Assembly: GCF_001422405.1 (NCBI RefSeq)
Contig: NZ_LMMV01000012.1
Location: 908,830-972,829 of the forward strand
Direction: 5' to 3'
DNA length: 64,000 nt
Source of the DNA: Pseudorhodoferax sp. Leaf267
GTDB taxonomy: Bacteria; Pseudomonadota; Gammaproteobacteria; Burkholderiales; Burkholderiaceae_C
The notes under the pieces: generated by a model
Told to the model about the DNA's origin: nothing
Database searches by the model: none
Seen by the model: the letters and a program-made list of their open reading frames with translations, nothing else
Shown here: positions 17,111 through 30,548 of the stretch, in pieces
Layout of the letters: each line of letters opens with the position of its first letter
How positions within the stretch are numbered: the first letter of the stretch is position 1
Translations under genes and position numbers: made by a program

Positions 17111-18056
17111 GAATGACACGTTCGTCGAACTCCGCGTGTGGCGCCAGTTCCTGACGGTGGCCGAAGAGCTGCACTTCGGCCGCGCCGCACACCGCCTGCA
17201 CATGACGCAGCCGCCGCTGACGCAAGCCATCGCGCAGCTGGAGCGCGCGCTGGGCGTGCCGCTGTTCGAGCGCACCAGCCGGCGTGTGGCGCTCACGCCC
17301 GCAGGCCAGGCGCTGCTGCCCGATGTGCGCGACCTGCTTACACGTGCCCAGGCCTTGCCCATGCGTGCGCGCGAGGCGGCCGGCGGCGAGGTCGGCCGCA
17401 TCCGGCTGGCCTTCGTGTCCACGGTGGGCTTCGAGCAATTGCCGGCCTGGGTGCGCGCCTTTCGCGCCGCCAACCCGCGCGTGGCGCTGGAGCTGGTCGA
17501 GGCCACGGGCGATGTGCAGCTCCAGGCTTTCGAGCGCGGCGAAATCGACGCCGGCTTCATGCTGCATTCACCGGGCTTCGCGCCGCCGGCCCTGGCCCAT
17601 TTGCAGGTGGCGACCGAGCCGCTGGTGCTGGCGCTGCCGGCGCATCATCCTTTGGCGGCTGCCGAGCGCCCGGCCTGGCCGGCCGTGCTGGCCGAGCCGC
17701 TGGTGATCTTCCCGCGCCGCATCGTGCCCTCTCTGCACGACGCCGTGTTCGGCCTGTACCACGCGGCCGGGCGCTTGCCCGTGGTGGCTCAGGAGGCCAT
17801 CCAGATGCAGACCATCGTCAACCTGGTGTCGGCCGGCATCGGCGTGGCCTGGGTGCCCGAGAGCGTGATGCAGTTTCGACGCCAGGGCGTGGTCTACCGC
17901 GTGCCCGATGCGCGCAAGCGCAAGGGCCAGCCCGGCGCGACGCCGGTGTGCGAGACGAGTCTGGTGTGGCGCGGCGAGGTCGATGGTGCGGGCGTGGCGC
18001 CCGCGCTGGCGCGCTTCGTGGCCTTCGTGCGCGCGCAGGTCGAAGAGGGCGACTAG
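17109..18056 (+). CDS. LysR family transcriptional regulator (divergent from ilvD)
   Basis: This 315-residue LysR protein has the N-terminal [22 protein letters not shown] and wing [14 protein letters not shown]. The effector-binding domain covers about residues 92-300. The HTH sequence resembles the BenM/CatM/CbbR side of the family. It is transcribed away from ilvD over a dyad operator, so control of ilvD or of itself is likely. It converges with the bacterioferritin gene, and the two stops share the palindrome CTAG, overlapping by four bases. Confidence 0.92.
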
Positions 18057-18529
18057 ACGCCGGCCTCTGTCTGCGACTGCAGGTAGTTCTCCAGGCCGAC
18101 CTTGTCGATCAGGCCGAGCTGCTTTTCCAGCCAGTAGGCGTGGTCTTCCTCGGTGTCGCGCAGTTGCGTGAGCAGCAGGTCGCGGCTTACGTAGTCGCCC
18201 ACGCTCTCGCACAGCGCCATGCCCTGCTGAAGCGCTGCGCGCACTTCGTATTCGGTGGCCAGGTCGGTGCGCAGCATGTCGGGCACGGTCTGGCCCGGCG
18301 TGAAGGGCTTGGGCTGCATGTCGGGCATTCCACCCAGGAACAGGATGCGGCGCAGCAGTGCATCGGCATGCTGCGTCTCTTCCTGCATCTCATGGTCCAG
18401 CCGCGTGTAGAGCTTGACGAAGCCCTGGTCTTCGTAGATGCGCGAGTGAATGAAGTACTGGTCGCGTGCGGCCAGCTCGCCGCGCAGCAAGTCCTTGAAA
18501 TAGTCGATGACCTGTGTGTTTCCCTGCAT
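18053..18529 (-). CDS. bfr: bacterioferritin
   Basis: The 158-residue bacterioferritin stores iron in a 24-mer cage. Ferroxidase ligands are present: Glu18 ([10 protein letters not shown]), Glu51 and His54 (EETQHAD), Glu93 or its neighbour, Glu127 and His130 (TEEDHAYW). By direct alignment with E. coli Bfr, the haem-ligating Met52 is replaced by Thr (EETQHAD against DEMKHAD). The cage may therefore lack its own haem, as in Neisseria BfrA-type subunits that pair with a Met-containing partner. No bacterioferritin-associated ferredoxin gene was found beside it. The stop overlaps the convergent LysR stop. Confidence 0.92.
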
Positions 18530-18776
18530 GTTCTCGTCCTGTTCGAATGCGCCGAGTATCCCGTGGCGCGCGCATTTGCGCCGAATGGCCCCCACGCAGC
18601 GCTGTGCATGCGAGGGCACGGGGCTCCTCACCTCGGCCGGCTGATCGGACTGCTGACGCTGGTCGTGGTCTGTATCGCCGGCGTGGGCCTGGCGGGCGCT
18701 GGTAGGGAAGCAGCTCGACCCGGTGCCGGCCCGCTGGCTGCCTGTGCATGGTCGAACCGCTGCAGAATGGGCCTGG

Positions 18777-19841
18777 ATGATCCGACCTTTCCATCCGACG
18801 CTGCGGCTGGCAGTTCTGGCCCTGGGGCTGCACGCGTGGCAGGCGCAGGCCCAGACGCCGCCGCCCGCCATCGCCCCCGCCGGCAAGCCATGGTCCACCG
18901 GCGCCGGCTTCGAGTTTGCCGACCAGCAGAAGAAGACCCGCCAGTCCGTGAGCGGCATCGCCTGCGCGCCGAACGCGGCTGGCGTGCGCATGTGCCTGGT
19001 GGTGTTCGACGAGGGCACGCAGGCGCGCTTCGCCGAGGTGGACGCCGGCCGGGTCGTGCCGCAGCCCGGCGGCGTGCTGTTCGGCGTGCCTGGCAAGGAG
19101 CTGGATGCCGAGGGTGCCGCCACCGACGGCCGCTTCTTCTATGTGACGGGCTCGCATGCCGTCAAGCGCAGCGACTGCGCACCCAACGAGGCGAGCCAGT
19201 ACGTGCTGCGCTTCGCGCGCGACGGCGCCACCGGCCAGGCGCTGCCGCCCGCGCCAGGGGCCGTGACGCCGGGCGGCTACCAGCACACACGGCGCCTGCG
19301 GGCGCTGTTCGCCAACGACTTCCAACTGCAACCCAGCCTGGGCGTGGGCCGCTGCCTGGGCACCGGCGCGCTCGACATCGAGGCCCTGGCCGTGCGCGAC
19401 GGGCGGCTGCATTTCGGGCTGCGCGGCCCGACCGAGGCCGACCACGCCTTCATCGCCTCGGTCGACGCAGACGCGTTCTTCAGCGGTGCCGACGCCGGCC
19501 TCACCGTCACGCGCGTGCCCGTCGGCTACCGGCGCGGCCTGCGCGACATGGCGGTCGTGCCGCAGGGCATCTTGCTGCTGGCCGGCCCCGACGACCATCC
19601 CGACAGCCGCGACGCGGGCTGGGCGGTCTCGCTGTGGGACGACAAGAGCGCCGGCCGGTTGGCCGCGCCCCGGCTGCTGGCCACGCTGGATCTGCGCACA
19701 GTCGCGCGCAGCAAGTGCGACGACGACACCAAGCCCGAGGCCATGGCGCTGCTGGAGGAGACCGCGCAGGCCTACCGCGTGCTCGTGCTGTCCGATGGCA
19801 TGTGCGACGGAGGGCCGCTGGTGTTCGACATTCCGCGCTGA
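18777..19841 (+). CDS. DUF3616-type exported protein
   Basis: This 354-residue protein has a signal peptide ([16 protein letters not shown]) and a DUF3616-like body that reads like a beta-propeller. Repeated strand-turn motifs include [43 protein letters not shown] and [17 protein letters not shown]. The starting ATG is chosen because it begins the signal peptide; an in-frame ATG 18 codons earlier would mask it. Function is unknown; it is predicted periplasmic or extracellular. The 247 bases before it hold no convincing gene, although one plus-strand frame contains a hydrophobic run ([19 protein letters not shown]) without a good start. Confidence 0.8.
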
Positions 19842-19853
19842 GAAGACGCAGCA

Positions 19854-21464
19854 TCAAGGCCCTGCGAACACGCCCAGCAGCAGCCCCGTGAGTTCGTGCA
19901 TGCCCCCGATCGCCGGCCCGGTGGGCGACAGACCGGCCTTGAAGCCCGCGCGCTCCAGGCGCTGCAGCAACCGTGGATCTGCGCTGATCACGTGCACGGG
20001 CACATCCCATGACGCGCCCGCGCCGCTGACGCCGGCGAACGCCTGGTGGTCGCCGACCACGATGGTCAGTAACCCGGTTGGCGCGCGCTCGCCGAGATAG
20101 GCGCCCAGCCACTCCCAGGTGGCCGCGATGGACTGCACATAGGCCGGCACCGGCTCGCGCAACGACGCGGGCTCGTCCAGTGCATGGGCGCGTTGCTCCG
20201 CGGTGTAGGGCTCGGGGCTTGTGAGCCGGTCCCAGTCCGCCACGAAGGGCGGGATGGGGCGGAACGGCACGTGGCTGTTGACGGTGGGGAACACGATGAA
20301 GCGCGGCGCACGGGAGGCTGCAGGCTTGGCCAGCTCCTGCGCATGCAGCAGCGCCATGGACGCCTGGTCCGGGATGCGCCAGGGGCCGAACGGCAGGCCG
20401 GCATAGCCCATGTCGTCGGCGTCGACATAGTGGTCGAAGCCGAAGAAGCGGCCTTCTGGCCAGGGGCGCTGCAGGCCCGGCATCCAGCTCACGGTGCGCC
20501 AGCCGTGCGCGCTGAAATGCTGCGCCAGCGTGCGGCGCTGCGTGCTGAGCAGCACCTCGTAGTCCAGCGGGTCGCGCGTGTCCACGCCCGTGAGCAGCGC
20601 GCCATGCGCCAGCCACGAGCCACCGGCATACGTGGGCGAGCGCACGCGGGCCGACACGACATGGCGGCCGCTGGCGGCAATGGCGCGGGCCAGGGCGTCG
20701 CGCGGGGCGGCCAGCTGGCGCGCCTGCTGCGGATCGTCCAGCGTGCTCACGCCGTAGGACTCGAAGAACAGCAGCAGCACGTCGGCGCCGCGCAGGCCCG
20801 CCAGGTCGGTTTCGAACGCGGGGCTGGGCGTCAGCCGCGACTCGGAGCCGCGGTCGTGCAGCAGCGCGGCGACCAGCTGCGTCTGGCGTGCCAGCACCGG
20901 CGTGATGCTGCCGGCGAAGAGCGGCGGCGTGTCGGGCGCGACGCGCAACTGCACCGCAAACACCGCCAGCAGCGCGGCCGACAGCGCCGCCGCGCCATGC
21001 CGCTGCGGGCGCCGCGCCAGCGTCTGCTGCAGGGCCTGCCAACACCCGCGTGCCAGGCGGTACAGCAGCCACAGCGCCAGCAGCACGCTGGCCACGGAGG
21101 CGGCGATCTGCCACCACGGCGTGGCGTTCATGGCCAGCATCCGGCCCACGTGGCGGCCGTCCCAGTACAGGTGCAACGGGCGGCCGAACAGGGCGGCCGA
21201 GGTGATGTCGATAAAACGCACCGCGATCAGCGCGGCGGTGGCGAGCGCGAACGCGCGCAGCGGCAGCCGGCCGCGCCAGGCCATGCAGCCGGTGGCCAGC
21301 AGCACGGCGATGCACAGCTCGGGCGCCACGCGCGGCGTGGGCTGCGGCCAGGGCGTCGGCCCGGGGTTGACCAGGGTCAGCAGCACGTTGAGCAGCAGCA
21401 ACGCCGCAGCGCCGGCCACGATGGGCGCGCCCTGGCGGGCCGGGGCCAGGGGCACCGGCCTCAC
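19854..21464 (-). CDS. membrane sulfatase / LTA-synthase-like phosphotransferase
   Basis: The 536-residue alkaline-phosphatase-superfamily protein has four or five N-terminal membrane helices (to about residue 190) and a periplasmic catalytic domain. Metal and nucleophile regions are LLLFFESYG, TYAGGSWLAHGALLTG (candidate nucleophile in GGSWLA), TVNSHVPF and VVGDHQAF. This layout matches LtaS, EptA and OpgB-like enzymes that transfer phosphoglycerol or phosphoethanolamine, or hydrolyse sulfate esters. Its GTG start overlaps the TGA of the YceI gene (GTGA), so it is translationally coupled with YceI and the CDP-alcohol phosphotransferase. A role in modifying a lipid or glycan head group is inferred. 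Confidence 0.82.
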   Translation of the reverse strand: MRPVPLAPARQGAPIVAGAAALLLLNVLLTLVNPGPTPWPQPTPRVAPELCIAVLLATGCMAWRGRLPLRAFALATAALIAVRFIDITSAALFGRPLHLYWDGRHVGRMLAMNATPWWQIAASVASVLLALWLLYRLARGCWQALQQTLARRPQRHGAAALSAALLAVFAVQLRVAPDTPPLFAGSITPVLARQTQLVAALLHDRGSESRLTPSPAFETDLAGLRGADVLLLFFESYGVSTLDDPQQARQLAAPRDALARAIAASGRHVVSARVRSPTYAGGSWLAHGALLTGVDTRDPLDYEVLLSTQRRTLAQHFSAHGWRTVSWMPGLQRPWPEGRFFGFDHYVDADDMGYAGLPFGPWRIPDQASMALLHAQELAKPAASRAPRFIVFPTVNSHVPFRPIPPFVADWDRLTSPEPYTAEQRAHALDEPASLREPVPAYVQSIAATWEWLGAYLGERAPTGLLTIVVGDHQAFAGVSGAGASWDVPVHVISADPRLLQRLERAGFKAGLSPTGPAIGGMHELTGLLLGVFAGP

Positions 21465-22057
21465 TTGCGGATCGCTTCGAACTCGATGATCAGCTGCACC
21501 TCGTCGCCAACCCAGCCGTTGGCCACGCCGTAGTCCATGCCGTAGGCGCTGCGCTGCACGCTGCCGCGCGCCGACACGCCCATCACATGCTGCTTGGTGA
21601 TGGGCGAGGGCGCGCTCTTGTTCCAGGTGGCCTGCAGCACCAGCGGCTGGCTGCGGCCCAGCAGCTCCAGCGTGCCGGCGATCTCGAAGGTGCGATCACC
21701 CGTGCGCTTGCCGCCCGGCGCCGTGAACACCATGCGCGGGAACTGCGCGGCGTTCAGGAAGTCGCCGCCGCGCACATGGCGGTCGCGCCCGTTGTGGTTC
21801 GTGGTCGCGCTGGCGGACTCGACCTCCACGCGCACGTCGCTGAGCGCGCCCGTGGCCTCGTCGAAGCTGTAAGTGCCGCGCGCCTTGGTGAACTGGCCCA
21901 GCACCTTGGCGTAGCCGATGTGCGCGACCAGGAAGCCCAGGCTCAGGTGGTCGGGGTCGACCTCGTAGCGCGCGCTCTGTGCGGCAGCGGGCAGGGTGGC
22001 CAGCGCCAGGCAGGCGGCCAGGGCCGTGCGACGCGAGAAACGTGCGATGCGGTTCAT
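21461..22057 (-). CDS. YceI family protein (periplasmic lipid/isoprenoid-binding lipocalin-like)
   Basis: This 198-residue protein has a signal peptide (RRTALAACLALATLPAAAQ) and then the YceI fold: YEVDPDHLSLGFLVAHIGYAKVLGQF at the start, VSARGSVQRSAYGMDYG in the middle and a C-terminal strand VQLIIEFEAIRK. YceI proteins form a closed beta-barrel that binds a polyisoprenoid or amide lipid. It overlaps both neighbours by four bases: its ATG with the stop of the CDP-alcohol phosphotransferase, and its stop with the GTG of the sulfatase. The three genes are one operon, which hints that the barrel binds a lipid made or modified by the other two. Confidence 0.9.
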   Translation of the reverse strand: MNRIARFSRRTALAACLALATLPAAAQSARYEVDPDHLSLGFLVAHIGYAKVLGQFTKARGTYSFDEATGALSDVRVEVESASATTNHNGRDRHVRGGDFLNAAQFPRMVFTAPGGKRTGDRTFEIAGTLELLGRSQPLVLQATWNKSAPSPITKQHVMGVSARGSVQRSAYGMDYGVANGWVGDEVQLIIEFEAIRK

Positions 22058-22827
22058 GAAGCAGCCTCCACGGAATGCGGCCGGCGCCGTGCCAGCCACA
22101 GCGTGTCCACGGCGAACGACCAGGCCAGCGCGGCCAGCCCGGCCGCGGCGATCCACTGCGCCAGCGCGGGCGGCACGATGGGCGCCAGGCACACGATCAG
22201 CGTGACGATCTGCACCACGCAGACCGTCTTGCGGCGCAGGCTGGGCGGCAGCGGCGCGGCCAGCCAGGGGCAGGCGATGGCCGCCAGCACGAAGGCATAG
22301 CGCAGCGCGCCGGCCGCCAGCACCCAGGCGCCGGCCTGGCCCAGCGCGTAGACCAGCAGGCTCAGCACCAGGATCAGCAGGGCGTCGGTCTCCATGTCGA
22401 AGCGCGCGCCGAAGGCGCTGGCCTGCCGTCTGCGCCGCGCGAGCGGGCCGTCGACCGCGTCCAGCACGGCGGCCAGCGTGGCCAGCCCGAGCGCAGCCCA
22501 AGCCCAACCCGGCGCGGCGCTCTCGCCCAGGCCCGCGGCCAGCAGGCTCACCATGGCCAGACGCAGCAGCGTGATCCCATTGGCCGCGCCGAAGCGCGCA
22601 TGCGGCCGGTGGGCCGCCAGCCCATGCCAGACGCAGCCGGCGGCGACGGCGAACAGCGCCAGTGCCTTCACCGTGAACCAGGGGCTCAGGTCGGCGGCGC
22701 TGGTGGCCAGCAGCGCCACGGCCAGCAAAGGCAGCGCCGTGGCCGCGATCGCCAGCGCCGCATTGCGCCGCAGCGCCAGGTGCGCGCGGGCCAGCGATGG
22801 CCTGGGCAGGGAAGGGGATGGGTGCAT
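22054..22827 (-). CDS. CDP-alcohol phosphatidyltransferase family membrane protein
   Basis: The 257-residue membrane enzyme has six to eight predicted helices. The family signature DG-x2-AR-x8-G-x3-D-x3-D is intact: D-AV-DG-PL-AR, then eight residues, then G-ARF-D-MET-D, at about residues 118-143. Such enzymes join a CDP-linked donor to an alcohol acceptor to make phospholipid-type products at the inner membrane. The acceptor is unknown; it does not look like PgsA or PssA. It is the first gene of a three-gene operon and is divergent, by 36 bases, from the MDR/PTPS/glycosyltransferase/methyltransferase genes, which suggests a shared product. Confidence 0.85.
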
Positions 22828-22863
22828 GGTTCTAAGATGGCGCGCCGCCGCAACCGACACAGC

Positions 22864-23862
22864 ATGCCAGCATTGCATCCCCACATGGTTTCCGATGGTT
22901 TCCGCGCCTGCTGGACCGAGGCGCCCGGCCGCGCCGCCATCCGCAGCGGCACGCTCGCGCCGCCCGCCGATGGCGAGGTGCGCGTGCGTGCGCTGCACAG
23001 CGCGGTGAGCCGCGGCACCGAGCTGCTGGTGTTCCGTGGCGAGGTGCCGGCCAGCGAGTTCGCCCGCATGCGCGCGCCGTTCCAGCAAGGTGAGTTCCCC
23101 GCGCCCGTGCTGTATGGCTATGCCAACGTCGGCCTGGTCGAGGCCGGGCCGCCTGCGCTGCAGGGGCGGCACGTGTTCTGCCTGTTCCCGCACCAGACGC
23201 ACTACAACGTGCCGGCCACTGCCGTCCACCTGCTGCCCGAGGGCGTGCCGCCGGCGCGCGCCGTGCTGGCTGCCAACATGGAGACGGCCGTCAACGCGCT
23301 GTGGGATGCCGCGCCGCGCCTGGGCGACCGCATCGCTGTGGTGGGCGGGGGCGTGGTCGGCCTGCTCGTGGCCTGGCTCGCCTCGCGCATGCCGGGCTGC
23401 GCGGTCGAGCTGGTGGACCTGCGCCCCGAGCGCGCGGCCGTCGCCGCGCAGCTGGGCCTGCGCTTCGCCCTGCCGCAGGCGGCTGCCCCGGATGCCGACC
23501 TCGTCGTGCACGCCAGCGGCCAGCCGCAGGGCCTCATCACGGCGCTGGGTCTGGCCGCCTTCGAGGCCACGGTTCTCGAGCTGAGCTGGTACGGCAGCCG
23601 CGCCGTCGCACTGCCGCTGGGCGAGGCCTTCCACGCGCGCCGGCTCACGCTGCGCAGCTCGCAGGTCGGCCACGTGGCAGCCGCGCAGCGCAGCCGCTGG
23701 AGCCATGCGCGGCGCATGGCGCTGGCGCTGGCGCTGCTGCGCGACGACGCGCTCGACGCCCTCATCACCGACCACGCCCCGTTCGACGATCTGCCGCAGG
23801 TGATGCAGCGGCTTGCCGGGGGTGCCCCCGACACGCTGTGCCACCGCATCGATTACCCCTGA
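22864..23862 (+). CDS. medium-chain dehydrogenase/reductase family protein lacking the zinc motifs
   Basis: The 332-residue MDR-type oxidoreductase has a GroES-like N-terminal half ([17 protein letters not shown]) and a Rossmann half with [15 protein letters not shown] at about residues 158-172. The catalytic zinc Cys and the HE pair of true alcohol dehydrogenases are missing (SRGTE in place of the Cys segment), so it is probably a zinc-independent reductase. Two in-frame ATGs (22864, 22885) are both possible; the first is given. It heads a plus-strand run with PTPS-like, glycosyltransferase and methyltransferase genes and is divergent from the CDP-alcohol phosphotransferase. Confidence 0.82.
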
Positions 23863-23872
23863 AAGACAAGCC

Positions 23873-24280
23873 ATGTACACCGTCAACGTCCGCGACCATT
23901 TCATGATCGCCCACAGCTTCCACGGCGAAGCCTTCGGCCCGGCGCAGCGCCTGCATGGCGCGACCTATGTGGTCGATGCCGCGTTCAGCCGCCGCGCGCT
24001 CGATGCCGACGGCATGGTGGTGGACATCGCCCGCGCCACCGAGGTGCTGCGCAGCGTGCTGGCCGAGTTCAACCTGCGCAACCTGGACGACGACGCCGCG
24101 TTCACGGGCCAGAACACGACCACCGAGTTCATGGCGCGCGTGGTGTTCGAGCGCATCGCGGCGCGCGCGCAGGCTGGCGAGCTGGGTGCGCACGCCAGTG
24201 GCATCGAATCGCTGCGCGTGCAGCTGCACGAGTCGCACGTGGCCTGGGCCAGCTACGAGGGCGTGCTGGGCGCGGGCTGA
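23873..24280 (+). CDS. 6-pyruvoyl-tetrahydropterin synthase/QueD-like protein with degenerate active site
   Basis: This 135-residue protein has the PTPS/QueD fold (T-fold) but lacks key residues when aligned to E. coli QueD by eye. Zn ligand 1 is kept (His14 in IAHSF), and so is Zn ligand 2 (His28 in RLHGA). The third ligand is Ala30 (HGA, not HGH). The nucleophile Cys position is Ala24. The catalytic Asp-His pair (LDHHYLND) is Asn67-Leu68 (FNLRNLDD). The substrate-anchoring Glu120 (LHESHVAW) is kept. It probably cannot do the normal QueD or PTPS reaction and may bind a pterin-like or other ligand. It lies ten bases after the MDR gene and five before the glycosyltransferase. Confidence 0.85.
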   Translation: MYTVNVRDHFMIAHSFHGEAFGPAQRLHGATYVVDAAFSRRALDADGMVVDIARATEVLRSVLAEFNLRNLDDDAAFTGQNTTTEFMARVVFERIAARAQAGELGAHASGIESLRVQLHESHVAWASYEGVLGAG

Positions 24281-24284
24281 AGCC

Positions 24285-25346
24285 GTGCACGGCAAGGCCT
24301 GCATCTTCCTGGTGCCCGGCGACTGGGATGCCCGCACGGGCGGCACGCTGTACGACCGCCGTATCGCGCAGGGCCTGCGAGCGGCCGGCTGGCAGGTCGA
24401 ACGGCGCTCGCCAGGCGACATGTTTCCGCTGCCCGACGCTGCCGCGTTGCGTCAAGCCAGCGAGGTCGTCGCGTTGCTGCCCGACGGTGCGCTGGTCGTG
24501 GCCGACGGGCTGGCCTTCGGCGCCATGCCGGCGATTGCCGAAGACCACGCTGCACGCCTGCGCTGGGTCGCGCTCGTGCACCACCCGCTGGCGCTGGAGA
24601 CCGGCCTGTCGCCCGCGCAGCAGGCTGCGCTGCGCGACAGCGAGCGGCGCGCGCTGGCCTGCGCGCGCCAGGTCGTCGTGACCAGCCGCTCCACCGCGCG
24701 CGCGCTGGTGGCGTTCGATGTGCCGGCCGCGCGCATCTCCGTCATCGAGCCCGGCACCGAGCCGGCGCCGCGTGCGGTGGGTGGCGGCGCGGGCAGCGGG
24801 GCCCTGTCGCTGCTGTGCGTGGCCAGCGTCACGGCGCGCAAGGGCCACGCACTGCTGCTGCAGGCCCTGGCGGCCCTGCAGGATCGCCCCTGGCAACTGC
24901 ACTGCGCCGGCAGCCTGGCGCGCGATGGCGACACCGTGGCCCAAGTGCGGCGCATCGCAGCGCGCCTGGGCCTGCAGGACCGCGTGGTCTGGCACGGCGA
25001 GGTCGATGCAGGCCGGCTGGAGCTGCTCTACGCGCAGGCCGACCTGTTCGTGCTGCCGTCCTGGTACGAGGGCTACGGCATGGCGCTGGCCGAAGCCCTG
25101 GCGCGCGGCCTGCCCGTCGTGAGCACGGCGGCCGGTGCCATCGTCGACACCGTGCCGGCCGGTGCCGGCGTGCTGGTGCCACCGGGCGATGCCGATGCGC
25201 TGTGCCATGCGCTGCAGCGGTTGATGGATGACCGCGCGGCACGCGCTGCGTTGGCCGCAGGGGCTGCAGCGGCCAGCACGCGGCTGCCCACCTGGCCCGC
25301 AGCCGTCACGCGTTTCGCCTCCGTGCTGCAAGGCGTGCCGCAATGA
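24285..25346 (+). CDS. glycosyltransferase family 4
   Basis: This 353-residue GT-B enzyme of the GT4 type is probably cytosolic. The N-terminal half starts at FLVPGDWDARTGGTLYDRRI, with the Gly-rich acceptor loop. The C-terminal half has LSLLCVASVTARKGH and the donor-binding motif PSWYEGYGMALAEALARGLP, containing the two glutamates of the EX7E motif. It is a retaining transferase, most often from a UDP- or GDP-sugar. The start is GTG at 24285, five bases after the PTPS-like stop. The 3' end overlaps the methyltransferase ATG (ATGA). The context suggests it glycosylates the product of this cluster; the acceptor is unknown. Confidence 0.87.
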   Translation: MHGKACIFLVPGDWDARTGGTLYDRRIAQGLRAAGWQVERRSPGDMFPLPDAAALRQASEVVALLPDGALVVADGLAFGAMPAIAEDHAARLRWVALVHHPLALETGLSPAQQAALRDSERRALACARQVVVTSRSTARALVAFDVPAARISVIEPGTEPAPRAVGGGAGSGALSLLCVASVTARKGHALLLQALAALQDRPWQLHCAGSLARDGDTVAQVRRIAARLGLQDRVVWHGEVDAGRLELLYAQADLFVLPSWYEGYGMALAEALARGLPVVSTAAGAIVDTVPAGAGVLVPPGDADALCHALQRLMDDRAARAALAAGAAAASTRLPTWPAAVTRFASVLQGVPQ

Positions 25347-26239
25347 CAGGCTTCAGCACCGACTGGCTGGCCCTGCGCGAGCCCTTCGACCACGCCGCGC
25401 GCACGGCGGCCGCCGCGGCGCTGGACTGGCCGGCGCTGGCAGCGCATCTGCCGGCAGGCGGAGAGCCGACCACCGTGCTCGACCTGGGCTGCGGCACGGG
25501 CGCCACGCTGCGCGCGCTGGCGCCGCGGCTGGGCAGCCGGCAGCGCTGGACGTTGGTGGACCACGACGCCCGCCTGCTTGACGCCATGCCCGCAGCGCTT
25601 GCCCCCTGGTCGGCATGCCAGGGCCTGCATCTGAAGGAGCGGGGCGGCGTCCTGCTGCTGCAAGGTGGGGGTCGCCGCATCGAGATCGAACGCCGCCGGG
25701 CCGACCTGGTCGCCGGCTTCGACCAGCTGCGATTCGAGAGCGCGCAACTGGTCACGGCCTCGGCGCTGCTGGACCTCGTCTCGGCGCCGTGGCTGGCGGC
25801 CCTGGTTGCGCGTTGCCGCGCAGCGAACGCGGCCATCTGCTGGGCGCTGAATGTCGACGATCGCATGGACTGGCAGCCGGTGGACCCGTCCGACGTGCCG
25901 GTCCACGCGCTGTTCCAGGCGCACCAGCAGCGCAACAAGGGATTCGGCCCGGCCCTGGGTGGCGCAGCCGTCACGCAAGCCGGCGCGCTGCTCGTGCAGG
26001 CGGGCTACCGCGTCAGCCGAGCCGCCAGCGACTGGCTTGTGGATGGCATGCGTGGCGCGCAGGATCGCGCCATGTTGCGCGCGATGGTCGAGGGGGTGGC
26101 GCTGGCGGCCCTCGAACAACAGCCGGCCTCACACGCCGAAGTCGACGACTGGAAGGCCCGGCGCCTGGGTCTGGTGGCCGACACGTGCCTGCGTGTGGGC
26201 CATGTCGATGTGCTGGGCATTCCTGCAGCGCCGCGCTAG
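25343..26239 (+). CDS. class I SAM-dependent methyltransferase
   Basis: The 298-residue protein has a Rossmann methyltransferase fold with motif I VLDLGCGTGATLRAL at about 49-63 and the acidic motif II WTLVDHDARLLDA. FDQLRFESAQLVTASALLDL corresponds to the middle strands. It overlaps the glycosyltransferase stop by four bases and ends with a TAG that shares CTAG with the convergent RibD-C gene. The target of methylation is unknown; a small molecule is more likely than DNA or protein given the neighbours. Together with the upstream three genes it forms a tight operon. Confidence 0.85.
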   Translation: MTGFSTDWLALREPFDHAARTAAAAALDWPALAAHLPAGGEPTTVLDLGCGTGATLRALAPRLGSRQRWTLVDHDARLLDAMPAALAPWSACQGLHLKERGGVLLLQGGGRRIEIERRRADLVAGFDQLRFESAQLVTASALLDLVSAPWLAALVARCRAANAAICWALNVDDRMDWQPVDPSDVPVHALFQAHQQRNKGFGPALGGAAVTQAGALLVQAGYRVSRAASDWLVDGMRGAQDRAMLRAMVEGVALAALEQQPASHAEVDDWKARRLGLVADTCLRVGHVDVLGIPAAPR

Positions 26240-27054
26240 GCGCGCAGGTCCATGTCCCACAGCACATCGCCGCCCAGCGCGAAGGTGCGCACGGGCGGGC
26301 GCAGCGCGTCGGCCATGGCGTCGGAGCGCTTGACCCGCAGCCCGGGGTGGCCGGCGCCGATCAGGACGGGCGCCACGATCAGGTGCAGCCGGTCCAGCAA
26401 GCCTTGCTGCACGAACTGCGACACCGTGACGCCGCCGCCCTCGATGAACAGCGTGCGCAGGCCACGCGCGCGCAGCGCGGCCAGGACCGCGGGCAGCGCC
26501 AGCACAGCACCGCCCGATGGGTGGGCGGGCAGCGCAACCACGCGGTCTGCGCCCAGCCGGGCCTCGGCCTGCGTGCGGTGGGCGGCGTGGCAGACCAGCA
26601 GGGTCGGCGCCTGGCCGTCGCGAAAGAGCTTGGCGTCGGCCGGTACGCGCAGCCGCGGGTCCAGCACCACGCGCGTGGGGTTGGGGCCGGGCACGCGGCG
26701 CGTGGTGAGCTGCGGGTTGTCCAGGCAGGCCGTGCTGGCGCCCACGACCACGGCGTCGCACAGCGCGCGCAGGCGGTGCAGGTGCACCAGGCCCTCGGGG
26801 CCGTTGACGAAGCAGGCGTCACCCGTGTGCGTGGCGATGCAGCCGTCCAGGCTCTGGCCGAGCTGGCCGATGGTCCAGTCGGCCGCATCGCCCCGGCGGT
26901 CGAGCAGCGGCTTGAACAGCGCGAACAGCGACTGGGCGTCGGCATGCCAGCCTTCGGGCAGGGCGTAGCCCGCGTGGGCCGACCAGTGCAGCGGCAGCCG
27001 CGCATCGGTCGGCGGCAGGCCGCGCCGGCGGCGCTGTGCGATGTCCAGCAACAA
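26236..27054 (-). CDS. RibD C-terminal (dihydrofolate-reductase-like) family reductase
   Basis: The product is about 272 residues with a C-terminal RibD_C/DHFR-like reductase domain. GQLGQSLDGCIAT is the N-terminal strand with the substrate-binding Asp. The NADPH region follows (CDAVVVGASTACLDNPQLTTRR), then LFIEGGGVTVSQF and LHLIVAPVLIGAG. RibD_C enzymes reduce pyrimidine or pterin intermediates with NADPH. No deaminase domain is present. The start is uncertain: no ATG precedes the conserved part in frame, so a TTG at 27054 is used; an upstream non-ATG start is possible. It converges on the methyltransferase gene (CTAG shared). Pterin or flavin-type chemistry would fit the PTPS-like neighbour. 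Confidence 0.8.
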   Translation of the reverse strand: MLLDIAQRRRRGLPPTDARLPLHWSAHAGYALPEGWHADAQSLFALFKPLLDRRGDAADWTIGQLGQSLDGCIATHTGDACFVNGPEGLVHLHRLRALCDAVVVGASTACLDNPQLTTRRVPGPNPTRVVLDPRLRVPADAKLFRDGQAPTLLVCHAAHRTQAEARLGADRVVALPAHPSGGAVLALPAVLAALRARGLRTLFIEGGGVTVSQFVQQGLLDRLHLIVAPVLIGAGHPGLRVKRSDAMADALRPPVRTFALGGDVLWDMDLRA

Positions 27055-29590: not shown

Positions 29591-30538
29591 CTACTGCGGC
29601 TTGCTGACCGACAGCGTCTGGATGATGGCTTCGAGCTGCGGGCTCATCGGCAGGTTGATGCTGGTGCCCGAGGGCAGGCGGCGCAGGAACCAGCGGTTGT
29701 ATTGCCGCTCGATCTCACCGTCCTCGGCCAGCAGGCGGAAGCTGTCGGTGATCACACTGGCCAGTTGCGGGTCGTCCTTGCGGTACATGATCCCGTAGGG
29801 GTCGTACGACAGGAACTCGCCGACCACCTGGAACTTGCCACCCTGGTTGGCGTTCTCGGCGATCAGGCCATACAGCAGCACGTCGTCGGTGGCAAATGCA
29901 TCGGCCGCGCCATTGGCCACCTGCGCGAAGCTGGCGGCGTGGTCGGGCATGGCGACGATCTGCGTGTCCAGCTTGAACCTGGCCACCAGGTCGCGCATTG
30001 ACTTCTCGTTCGTCGTGCCGGCCGTAACCACCACCTTCTTGCCCGCCAGATCACGGAACGAGCGCACGGGCGAGCCGGCCTTCACCATGAGCTTGGTGCC
30101 CGAGACGAAGATGATGGGCGAGAAGGCCACGCGCTTTTGGCGCTCCAGGTTGCTCGTGGTCGAGCCGCATTCCAGGTCGGCCTGGCCGTCGGCGATGGCG
30201 TCGATGCGCGACTCGGACGTGACCGGCACCCAGGTGATGGTCAATGTCTTCTGCACGGCGTCGGCGATGGAGTTCACGAGCGCCTTGCACAGTTCGATCG
30301 AATAGCCGATCGGCTCCTTGCGCGCATTGAAGTACGAGAACGGCACCGAGGATTCACGGTGCGCGATCGCGATCGTTCCGGTATTGCGCAGCTTGGCCAG
30401 CGTGCCGGTGAGCTGCGTGGGCGCGAATGCCGAAGAGGGCGGCCGGGGCCGCTCCACCTCGTCTTCCGCCCGCGCCGCACCGCCCGCCAGCGCGGCCCAC
30501 AGGCCGATGGCCAGACATGCCTTCCATGACGTGTTCAT
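29591..30538 (-). CDS. amino-acid ABC transporter substrate-binding protein (GltI-like, orphan)
   Basis: The 315-residue binding protein has a signal peptide (WKACLAIGLWAALAGGAARA) and a type II periplasmic binding fold like GltI/DEBP. Ligand-site segments are AHRESSVPFSYFNARKEPIGY, ADLECGSTTSNLERQK and TAGTTNEKS. It should bind glutamate, aspartate or a related amino acid. No permease or ATPase gene is adjacent; instead it follows the dicarboxylate symporter by ten bases and closes the gab/decarboxylase operon, so it may work with a distant ABC system or as a sensor ligand-binding protein. Confidence 0.88.
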   Translation of the reverse strand: MNTSWKACLAIGLWAALAGGAARAEDEVERPRPPSSAFAPTQLTGTLAKLRNTGTIAIAHRESSVPFSYFNARKEPIGYSIELCKALVNSIADAVQKTLTITWVPVTSESRIDAIADGQADLECGSTTSNLERQKRVAFSPIIFVSGTKLMVKAGSPVRSFRDLAGKKVVVTAGTTNEKSMRDLVARFKLDTQIVAMPDHAASFAQVANGAADAFATDDVLLYGLIAENANQGGKFQVVGEFLSYDPYGIMYRKDDPQLASVITDSFRLLAEDGEIERQYNRWFLRRLPSGTSINLPMSPQLEAIIQTLSVSKPQ

Positions 30539-30548
30539 GGCGCGCGCC

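Follow-up and report, generated by a model that had tools for sequence, protein, structure and literature searches.

Gene Content of the Cluster

The window analyzed here is a stretch of 64,000 nucleotides from Pseudorhodoferax sp. Leaf267 (contig NZ_LMMV01000012.1, positions 908,830 to 972,829 of the forward strand), and our subject is a group of eight genes at positions 19854 to 27054, arranged as a minus-strand trio, a plus-strand quartet, and one convergent minus-strand gene. At its center is the gene for a small protein of the 6-pyruvoyltetrahydropterin synthase (PTPS) family, and the window holds one copy of a widespread, uncharacterized biosynthetic cluster built around the PTPS-IV subfamily. 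A previous interpretation made from the DNA alone (the sequence-only reading) had assigned eight genes of the following families to this region, and all are present:

19854–21464, minus strand: sulfatase/LTA-synthase-like membrane protein, 536 amino acids (aa); open reading frame; accessory
21461–22057, minus strand: YceI-family protein, 198 aa; PF04264, 9.6e-35; accessory
22054–22827, minus strand: CDP-alcohol phosphotransferase (CDP-OH), 257 aa; PF01066 (CDP-OH_P_transf), 1.9e-18; semi-core
22864–23862, plus strand: oxidoreductase of the medium-chain dehydrogenase/reductase (MDR) type, BchC-like, 332 aa; family matches below cut-off, and alignment; core
23873–24280, plus strand: PTPS-IV T-fold protein, 135 aa (FGPAQRLHGATY), catalytic triad lost, Glu120 kept; PTPS Pfam family, 1.5e-26; core
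24285–25346, plus strand: GT4-type glycosyltransferase, 353 aa, GTG start, E-x7-E donor motif; PF00534 (Glycos_transf_1), 2.7e-32; core
25343–26239, plus strand: class I S-adenosylmethionine methyltransferase (MT), 298 aa; PF13649 (Methyltransf_25), 1.2e-6; core
26236–27054, minus strand: stand-alone RibD_C reductase without a deaminase domain, 272 aa, TTG start; PF01872, 1.8e-38; core

The tight packing by four-base overlaps described in the sequence-only reading holds at four junctions (sulfatase/YceI, YceI/CDP-OH, GT4/methyltransferase, and the convergent methyltransferase/RibD_C pair) and not at MDR/PTPS and PTPS/GT4, where gaps of 10 and 4 bases are found. The two operons, said there to overlap each other, are instead divergent, with 36 bases between the CDP-OH side and the MDR side under the chosen starts. 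A search of positions 22700–23000 for a divergent promoter gave no sigma-70-like site, which says little, and no tRNA genes were found in the whole window.

Two of the assignments need qualification. The MDR protein has family matches below cut-off only, the top NCBIfam model being bchC with 41.5 bits against the 291.25 needed, and its alignment shows a conserved YGY at the position of GHE, the zinc-binding motif of zinc-dependent MDR alcohol dehydrogenases, so that this motif is absent. For the sulfatase-like protein itself neither Pfam nor NCBIfam gives a match; its homologue in locus L048, 38% identical, matches PF00884 at 1.2e-8, and a periplasmic phospho-group transferase is the predicted function.

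Conservation of the Neighborhood

To survey the neighborhood we assembled two sets of loci. The close set comes from a contig scan with the window PTPS and consists of the best 80 loci of at least 502 relatives, chosen by closeness; its counts record the best hidden Markov model (HMM) match (E ≤ 1e-8) anywhere in the locus, with HMMs built from the same 80 loci, and alignments of neighbor proteins exclude matches below 70% of query length. The even sample comes from 299 evenly drawn Pseudomonadota genomes searched at E ≤ 1e-15 with alignment A1, which holds the window protein and 54 of the 80 loci (L041 shortened, nine of 63 loci left out); its gene counts extend over all of each fetched stretch, at most 20 kb. 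The two sets overlap, L124 being apparently the same record as L070.

By our reading of the record titles, many of which denote metagenome-assembled genomes, the close set comprises 66 Pseudomonadota, 8 Gemmatimonadota, 5 Acidobacteriota, and 1 Actinomycetota. The core genes recur in most of its 80 loci, GT4 in 80, MDR in 78, MT in 77, and RibD_C in 64, and the semi-core CDP-OH in 61. Less frequent are creatininase (32), the sulfatase-like gene (31), a RibA-like gene (29), a flippase (LPG_synthase_TM; 29), and FkbM (28), followed by YceI (26), OpgH (16), OpgG (12), a second methyltransferase (8), and TenA (7). Limiting the count to 8 kb around PTPS gives 27 RibA-like and 60 CDP-OH genes per 80 loci, and where 7 kb or more is available on each side (60 loci), the partners within 8 kb are MDR in 59, GT4 in 60, MT in 60, RibD_C in 54, and CDP-OH in 48.

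The even sample yielded matches in 21 of the 299 genomes, 19 strong (own genome included) and two weak. Among the 18 strong loci besides our own, MDR is adjacent in all 18 and GT4 lies within 5 kb in all 18, with MT and RibD_C in 16 each; OpgH-like genes occur in nine, CDP-OH, flippase, and RibA-like genes in seven each, FkbM in four, YceI, sulfatase-like, and OpgG genes in three each, and creatininase in two. The two weak matches are canonical PTPS proteins by our reading (CARLHGH), with no partners but for a weak GT4 match (59 bits) at a distance of 6 kb. Nine of the 60 kin genomes match at E ≤ 0.001: all six genomes of the genus (ours among them), a further genome with 58% identity, and two weakly. 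A PTPS relative is also contained in 19 of 72,556 plasmid records (E ≤ 1e-20; nine inspected); one of these, on a Streptomyces anthocyanicus plasmid (L141, 9001–9426, 53% identity), is without the usual annotated neighbors and was excluded from the counts, and another, L098, carries no annotation.

The sequence-only reading had called for a gene-neighborhood comparison and had taken confinement to this strain or its close relatives as a sign that the genes do not form one cluster. The neighborhood proves to be conserved across numerous genera and, judged from record titles, four phyla, and it recurs in the 18 other Pseudomonadota genomes of the even sample. Conservation of the cluster proteins across so many species indicates more than chance. 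Only some of the loci contain YceI and the sulfatase-like gene, and the lipid half of the cluster is accessory.

The genes flanking the cluster include, on the left, a ferritin-family protein (18053–18559, minus strand) and a DUF3616 protein (18723–19841, plus strand), neither of which has a tblastn match in the fetched loci L004–L086. To the right, a TonB-dependent receptor (PF00593, PF07715; 27215–29416, minus strand) lies upstream of RibD_C on the same strand, separated by 160 bases and adjoined by an SBP_bac_3 protein at 29591–30541.

The PTPS-Like Protein

The window protein was compared residue by residue with the canonical PTPS proteins of the fetched genomes L138, L139, and L145. The catalytic Cys of CxRLHGH is replaced by Ala24 (FGPAQRLHGATY); the zinc ligands His14 and His28 are retained, the third (the second His of HGH) being Ala30, invariant across the 55 rows of A1; and the catalytic Asp-His pair is replaced by Asn67-Leu68, with Asn67 nearly invariant in A1. 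The pterin-anchoring Glu120 is retained and is invariant in the same 55 rows, so that the protein combines a T-fold with the pterin-binding Glu. The "degenerate PTPS" of the sequence-only reading is thereby borne out.

HGAT is found in all 81 aligned PTPS rows and FGPAQ in 79 of them (absent from L040 and L074), whereas CxxxHGH is found in none of the 81. The catalytic-Cys motifs CxxxHGH and CxxxxxHGH define PTPS-I/QueD and PTPS-II (PMC5041015, PMC5445326), and FGPAQ is the signature of PTPS-IV, a subfamily of COG0720 (PMC5445326). FGPAQ is present in the window protein, which, judged by its residues, is of this published PTPS-IV type. The PTPS-IV structure 3d7j (SCO6650 of Streptomyces coelicolor) shares 58% identity with the window protein and superimposes on its model with a root-mean-square deviation of 0.7 over 132 residues; released in 2008, it still carries the listing "uncharacterized protein". 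The paper on this structure reportedly describes zinc, triad, and PTPS activity as absent.

Database records label the cluster PTPS a 6-carboxytetrahydropterin synthase with a queuosine Gene Ontology (GO) term, an automatic label that is probably wrong for these genes. The label bears on one alternative, according to which the cluster merely supplies extra copies of enzymes for riboflavin, F420, or queuosine. In its favor, RibA and RibD_C belong to families of the riboflavin type, QueC is encoded in this genome with no PTPS other than that of the cluster to go with the queuosine term, and a review assigns PTPS-IV to archaeal F420 synthesis, citing unpublished work. Against this stand the absence of the QueD motif and of the triad from the protein, the lack of a CofH match in the own genome, and the absence of any PTPS from 13 of the 40 genomes of the kin set, which means that a missing QueD is common here. 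We further know of no role for GT4, MT, or CDP-OH in riboflavin, F420, or queuosine pathways, to which such genes appear foreign. We regard this explanation as very improbable. Queuosine was rejected on the missing triad and the one missing zinc His, despite QueC and the lack of a second PTPS, and F420 on the missing CofH match, which tests the role in this genome and not the sequence family.

The QueC gene itself (G000:C1:881048-881713) has a carbohydrate-kinase-like gene for a neighbor; with the PTPS-IV as its sole PTPS, the genome has no canonical QueD. Four kin genomes (G012, G018, G040, and G050) encode tandem PTPS-domain proteins, with three consecutive PF01242 stretches in each frame of 368–461 aa.

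Genes for a Probable Entry from GTP

The sequence-only reading had suggested looking for a GTP cyclohydrolase partner. Such a partner exists, and it is of a type II-like kind: RibA-like (GTP cyclohydrolase II-like) genes occur in 29 of the 80 close loci, the one representative scanned matching PF00925 at 5e-56, whereas the own FolE, used as query for relatives of type I (GTP cyclohydrolase I), hit one of 108 loci, with a self-match control that gave nothing and is void. GTP cyclohydrolase I was rejected as a cluster partner on that single occurrence and on the position of the own FolE, some 136 kb from the cluster.

RibA-like genes take several positions. In Palleronia (L142) a co-directional five-gene operon reads RibA-MDR-PTPS-MT-RibD_C, without CDP-OH; in Spirillospora (L076) RibA precedes CDP-OH and MDR; in Peteryoungia and Agrobacterium (L096, L140) it adjoins CDP-OH and is divergent from MDR; and in Streptomyces fungicidicus it stands beside creatininase. 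The Tyr before EGR, thought to be needed for deformylation in GTP cyclohydrolase II, is kept in the 26 clustered RibA-like proteins, and the three Cys are kept in the eight inspected. With these residues retained, ordinary GTP cyclohydrolase II chemistry would be expected of the cluster proteins.

The RibD_C protein matches PF01872 with conserved SLDG, D-P-LT, and EGGG motifs. Its best solved relative is 6p8c, a 2,5-diamino-6-ribosylamino-4(3H)-pyrimidinone 5′-phosphate reductase (3e-25), followed by 2azn (8.7e-21), and it scores about equally with the eubacterial RibD model (99.4 bits) and the archaeal reductase model (97.4 bits). A search of the 108 loci for a RibD-type zinc-deaminase motif returned four matches, by our reading three TadA-like and one spurious. 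A RibD_C without an encoded deaminase, its relatedness to 6p8c, and the RibA-like partner together suggest that GTP keeps its 2-amino-4-oxo edge.

The Lipid-Related Genes and the Possible Fate of the Product

The window CDP-OH carries the complete DxxDGxxAR-x8-GxxxDxxxD motif, the catalytic motif of CDP-alcohol phosphotransferases, which is conserved in a 61-row alignment. Flippase and CDP-OH go together: of the 29 close-set loci with a flippase, 28 also have CDP-OH (the exception is L080), and in the even sample the two occur in the same seven of 18 loci, a pairing which suggests that a lipid product of CDP-OH gets flipped. Relatives of an annotated cytochrome b (b561-type by our reading) occur in 13 of 108 loci, and the gene adjoins RibD_C in L095, L096, and L140.

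The sequence-only reading had the cluster build a glycosylated, methylated small molecule and attach it to a lipid. A methylated, glycosylated pterin- or pyrimidine-like molecule fits the conserved core, and this half of the claim stands; the lipid genes do not belong to the core, and the attachment is correspondingly less secure. One could instead envisage that the core MDR-PTPS-GT4-MT-RibD_C yields a pterin-like compound with methyl and sugar groups, which serves as a signal, cofactor, or light screen and stays free of lipid; CDP-OH, YceI, and the sulfatase-like gene would then form a separate envelope function that shares the place. The low frequency of CDP-OH (7), YceI (3), and sulfatase-like (3) genes in the 18 even-sample loci agrees with such a soluble product, as does the existence of small clusters without CDP-OH: L097 has neither CDP-OH nor GT4 in its core, L142 lacks CDP-OH, and neither has a CDP-OH or OpgH-like gene divergent from MDR. 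Precedents are the cyanobacterial pterin glycosides and the pteridine glycosyltransferase described for Chlorobium (PMC5683033). The presence of CDP-OH in 61 of 80 loci from four phyla, its pairing with the flippase (28 of 29), and the adjacency of RibA and CDP-OH in L076, L096, and L140 are all harder to reconcile with this explanation, which we consider possible and on balance unlikely. The small Rhodobacterales clusters of L097 and L142 also encode a ribokinase or PfkB-type kinase, with an MtnA-like (IF-2B) or inositol monophosphatase-type gene nearby (L097, 7834–8754 and 12020–13132; L142, 5171–5974 and 10997–11887).

Alternatively, the molecule might end on an OpgH/OpgG-type periplasmic glucan or another envelope glycan, with the sulfatase-like protein as the transferase. 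OpgH-like genes are found in nine of the 18 even-sample loci, in seven of them divergent from and adjoining MDR, as well as in 16 of the 80 close loci (OpgG in 12), and an annotated mdoH adjoins MDR in Methylosinus. However, OpgH and OpgG occur neither in the window cluster nor in loci L007–L030, and the seven divergent OpgH-like proteins score 485–617 bits against 937–1016 in Halomonas loci (264 in the cut-off locus L069), so that they may do something else. Modification of a glycan seems improbable to us.

A Proposed Pathway

From the linkage of the genes, their families, the residue losses, and the fold, we infer a series of reactions, their order, a product, and its attachment to a lipid. 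In the first step a GTP cyclohydrolase II-like enzyme would open GTP to 2,5-diamino-6-(phosphoribosylamino)pyrimidinone; slightly over one third of the close loci bring a gene for it, and in the window strain the housekeeping enzyme would serve. The stand-alone RibD_C would then reduce the ribosyl to a ribityl chain and, as no deaminase is encoded with it, the 2-amino-4-oxo (pterin-type) edge would stay. PTPS-IV, its edge-gripping Glu kept and its catalytic residues lost, may together with the BchC-like MDR act on the second ring or the side chain, closing or reworking it, after which the methyltransferase and GT4 would decorate the ring product. In loci like that of the window, CDP-OH would finally join the product to a phosphatidyl group, for which the ribityl phosphate would, by analogy with PgsA, be a plausible polyol-phosphate acceptor; a flippase, if there is one, would turn the resulting lipid to the outside, and YceI and the sulfatase-like protein would work in the periplasm.

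That one dedicated pathway acts on a GTP-derived 2-amino-4-oxopyrimidine or pterin is probable. The whole route has, in our estimation, roughly even chances of being the best explanation of the cluster, and lipid attachment as part of the pathway is somewhat more doubtful than that. More tentatively still, and rather unlikely in all its detail, at least four phyla might produce a pterin-like cofactor or signal anchored in a lipid. Its ring system, of the N-ribityl 2-amino-4-oxo type and derived from GTP, would be methylated, glycosylated, joined by a dedicated CDP-OH to a phosphatidyl group, and flipped, to be used in the periplasm alongside membrane proteins of the YceI type and, at some loci, the cytochrome b type.

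A number of observations weigh against the pathway set out here. The own genome yielded no cluster-type RibA, in a search that was not sensitive: the two GTP_cyclohydro2 proteins identified by family lie on separate contigs, C22 (probably RibBA) and C1, and the cluster-RibA query found only the C1 protein (33% identity) and missed that on C22. With no cluster-type RibA, the housekeeping enzyme would have to supply the first pyrimidine in the window strain, or FolE, of which there is one (C12:792452), the pterin. The FolE-like gene that lies beside the cluster in L047 (7420–8058; 31% identity, 3e-24) would feed a pterin directly. RibD_C is absent from L020, L052, L062, L075, L076, and L080, six loci covering 7 kb or more to either side, and the even-sample loci L129 and L130 have no methyltransferase and place GT4 upstream of MDR. 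The cluster creatininase is left without an explained role by the retained deformylation Tyr, and the creatininase homologue of the own genome (C3:82505) stands among a solute-binding protein, regulators, and a short-chain dehydrogenase/reductase, a setting that we read as catabolic, and it was left out of the count. For the lipid steps, the patchiness of the lipid genes in the even sample counts in the same direction, as does the lack of a flippase in 33 of the 61 CDP-OH loci, the window cluster among them, and the seven even-sample loci, and Methylosinus, in which an OpgH-like gene stands divergent from MDR with no CDP-OH. Finally, the distances among cluster proteins correlate at 0.65 to 0.87 over 28 gene pairs; the shuffles ignore relatedness, so this is no proof, and common descent would also produce such correlations.

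Comparison with Known Systems

The sequence-only reading called the cluster undescribed. The open-licence papers searched contain no description of the combined cluster or its product, and to that extent the pathway is unpublished; the PTPS-IV subfamily is already published, with a structure, and so is part of its neighborhood, a 2017 network study having placed "FolE2" there (PMC5445326).

Several characterized enzymes resemble single members of the cluster. The window RibD_C shares its family with 6p8c, 2azn, and the C-domain of bacterial RibD and stands alone as a reductase; it differs from them in sitting with a methyltransferase, GT4, and lipid genes. BrbF is a creatininase-family formamidase of Sinorhizobium riboflavin synthesis that acts on the first GTP-derived pyrimidine (PMC9478397). 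Creatininase-family genes are found in 32 of the 80 close loci, although not in the window cluster; the BrbF precedent would make them less odd, without thereby establishing a cluster-type role. The pteridine glycosyltransferase of Chlorobium tepidum (PMC5683033) would represent an analogous glycosylation step.

For the PTPS-like protein, the contrast with QueD and 6-pyruvoyltetrahydropterin synthase lies in the replacement of the Cys, Asp, His, and one zinc His, and its closest counterpart is SCO6650, which it resembles in FGPAQ, in fold, and in the similar neighbor genes found in Streptomyces fungicidicus (L093: CDP-OH, MDR, PTPS, GT4, MT, creatininase, RibA, and flippase). The neighborhood gives the structurally solved yet uncharacterized PTPS-IV a testable pathway, in which a GTP cyclohydrolase II and a deaminase-less reductase are joined by methyl- and glycosyltransferases and, in many cases, by a phospholipid-type transferase together with a flippase.

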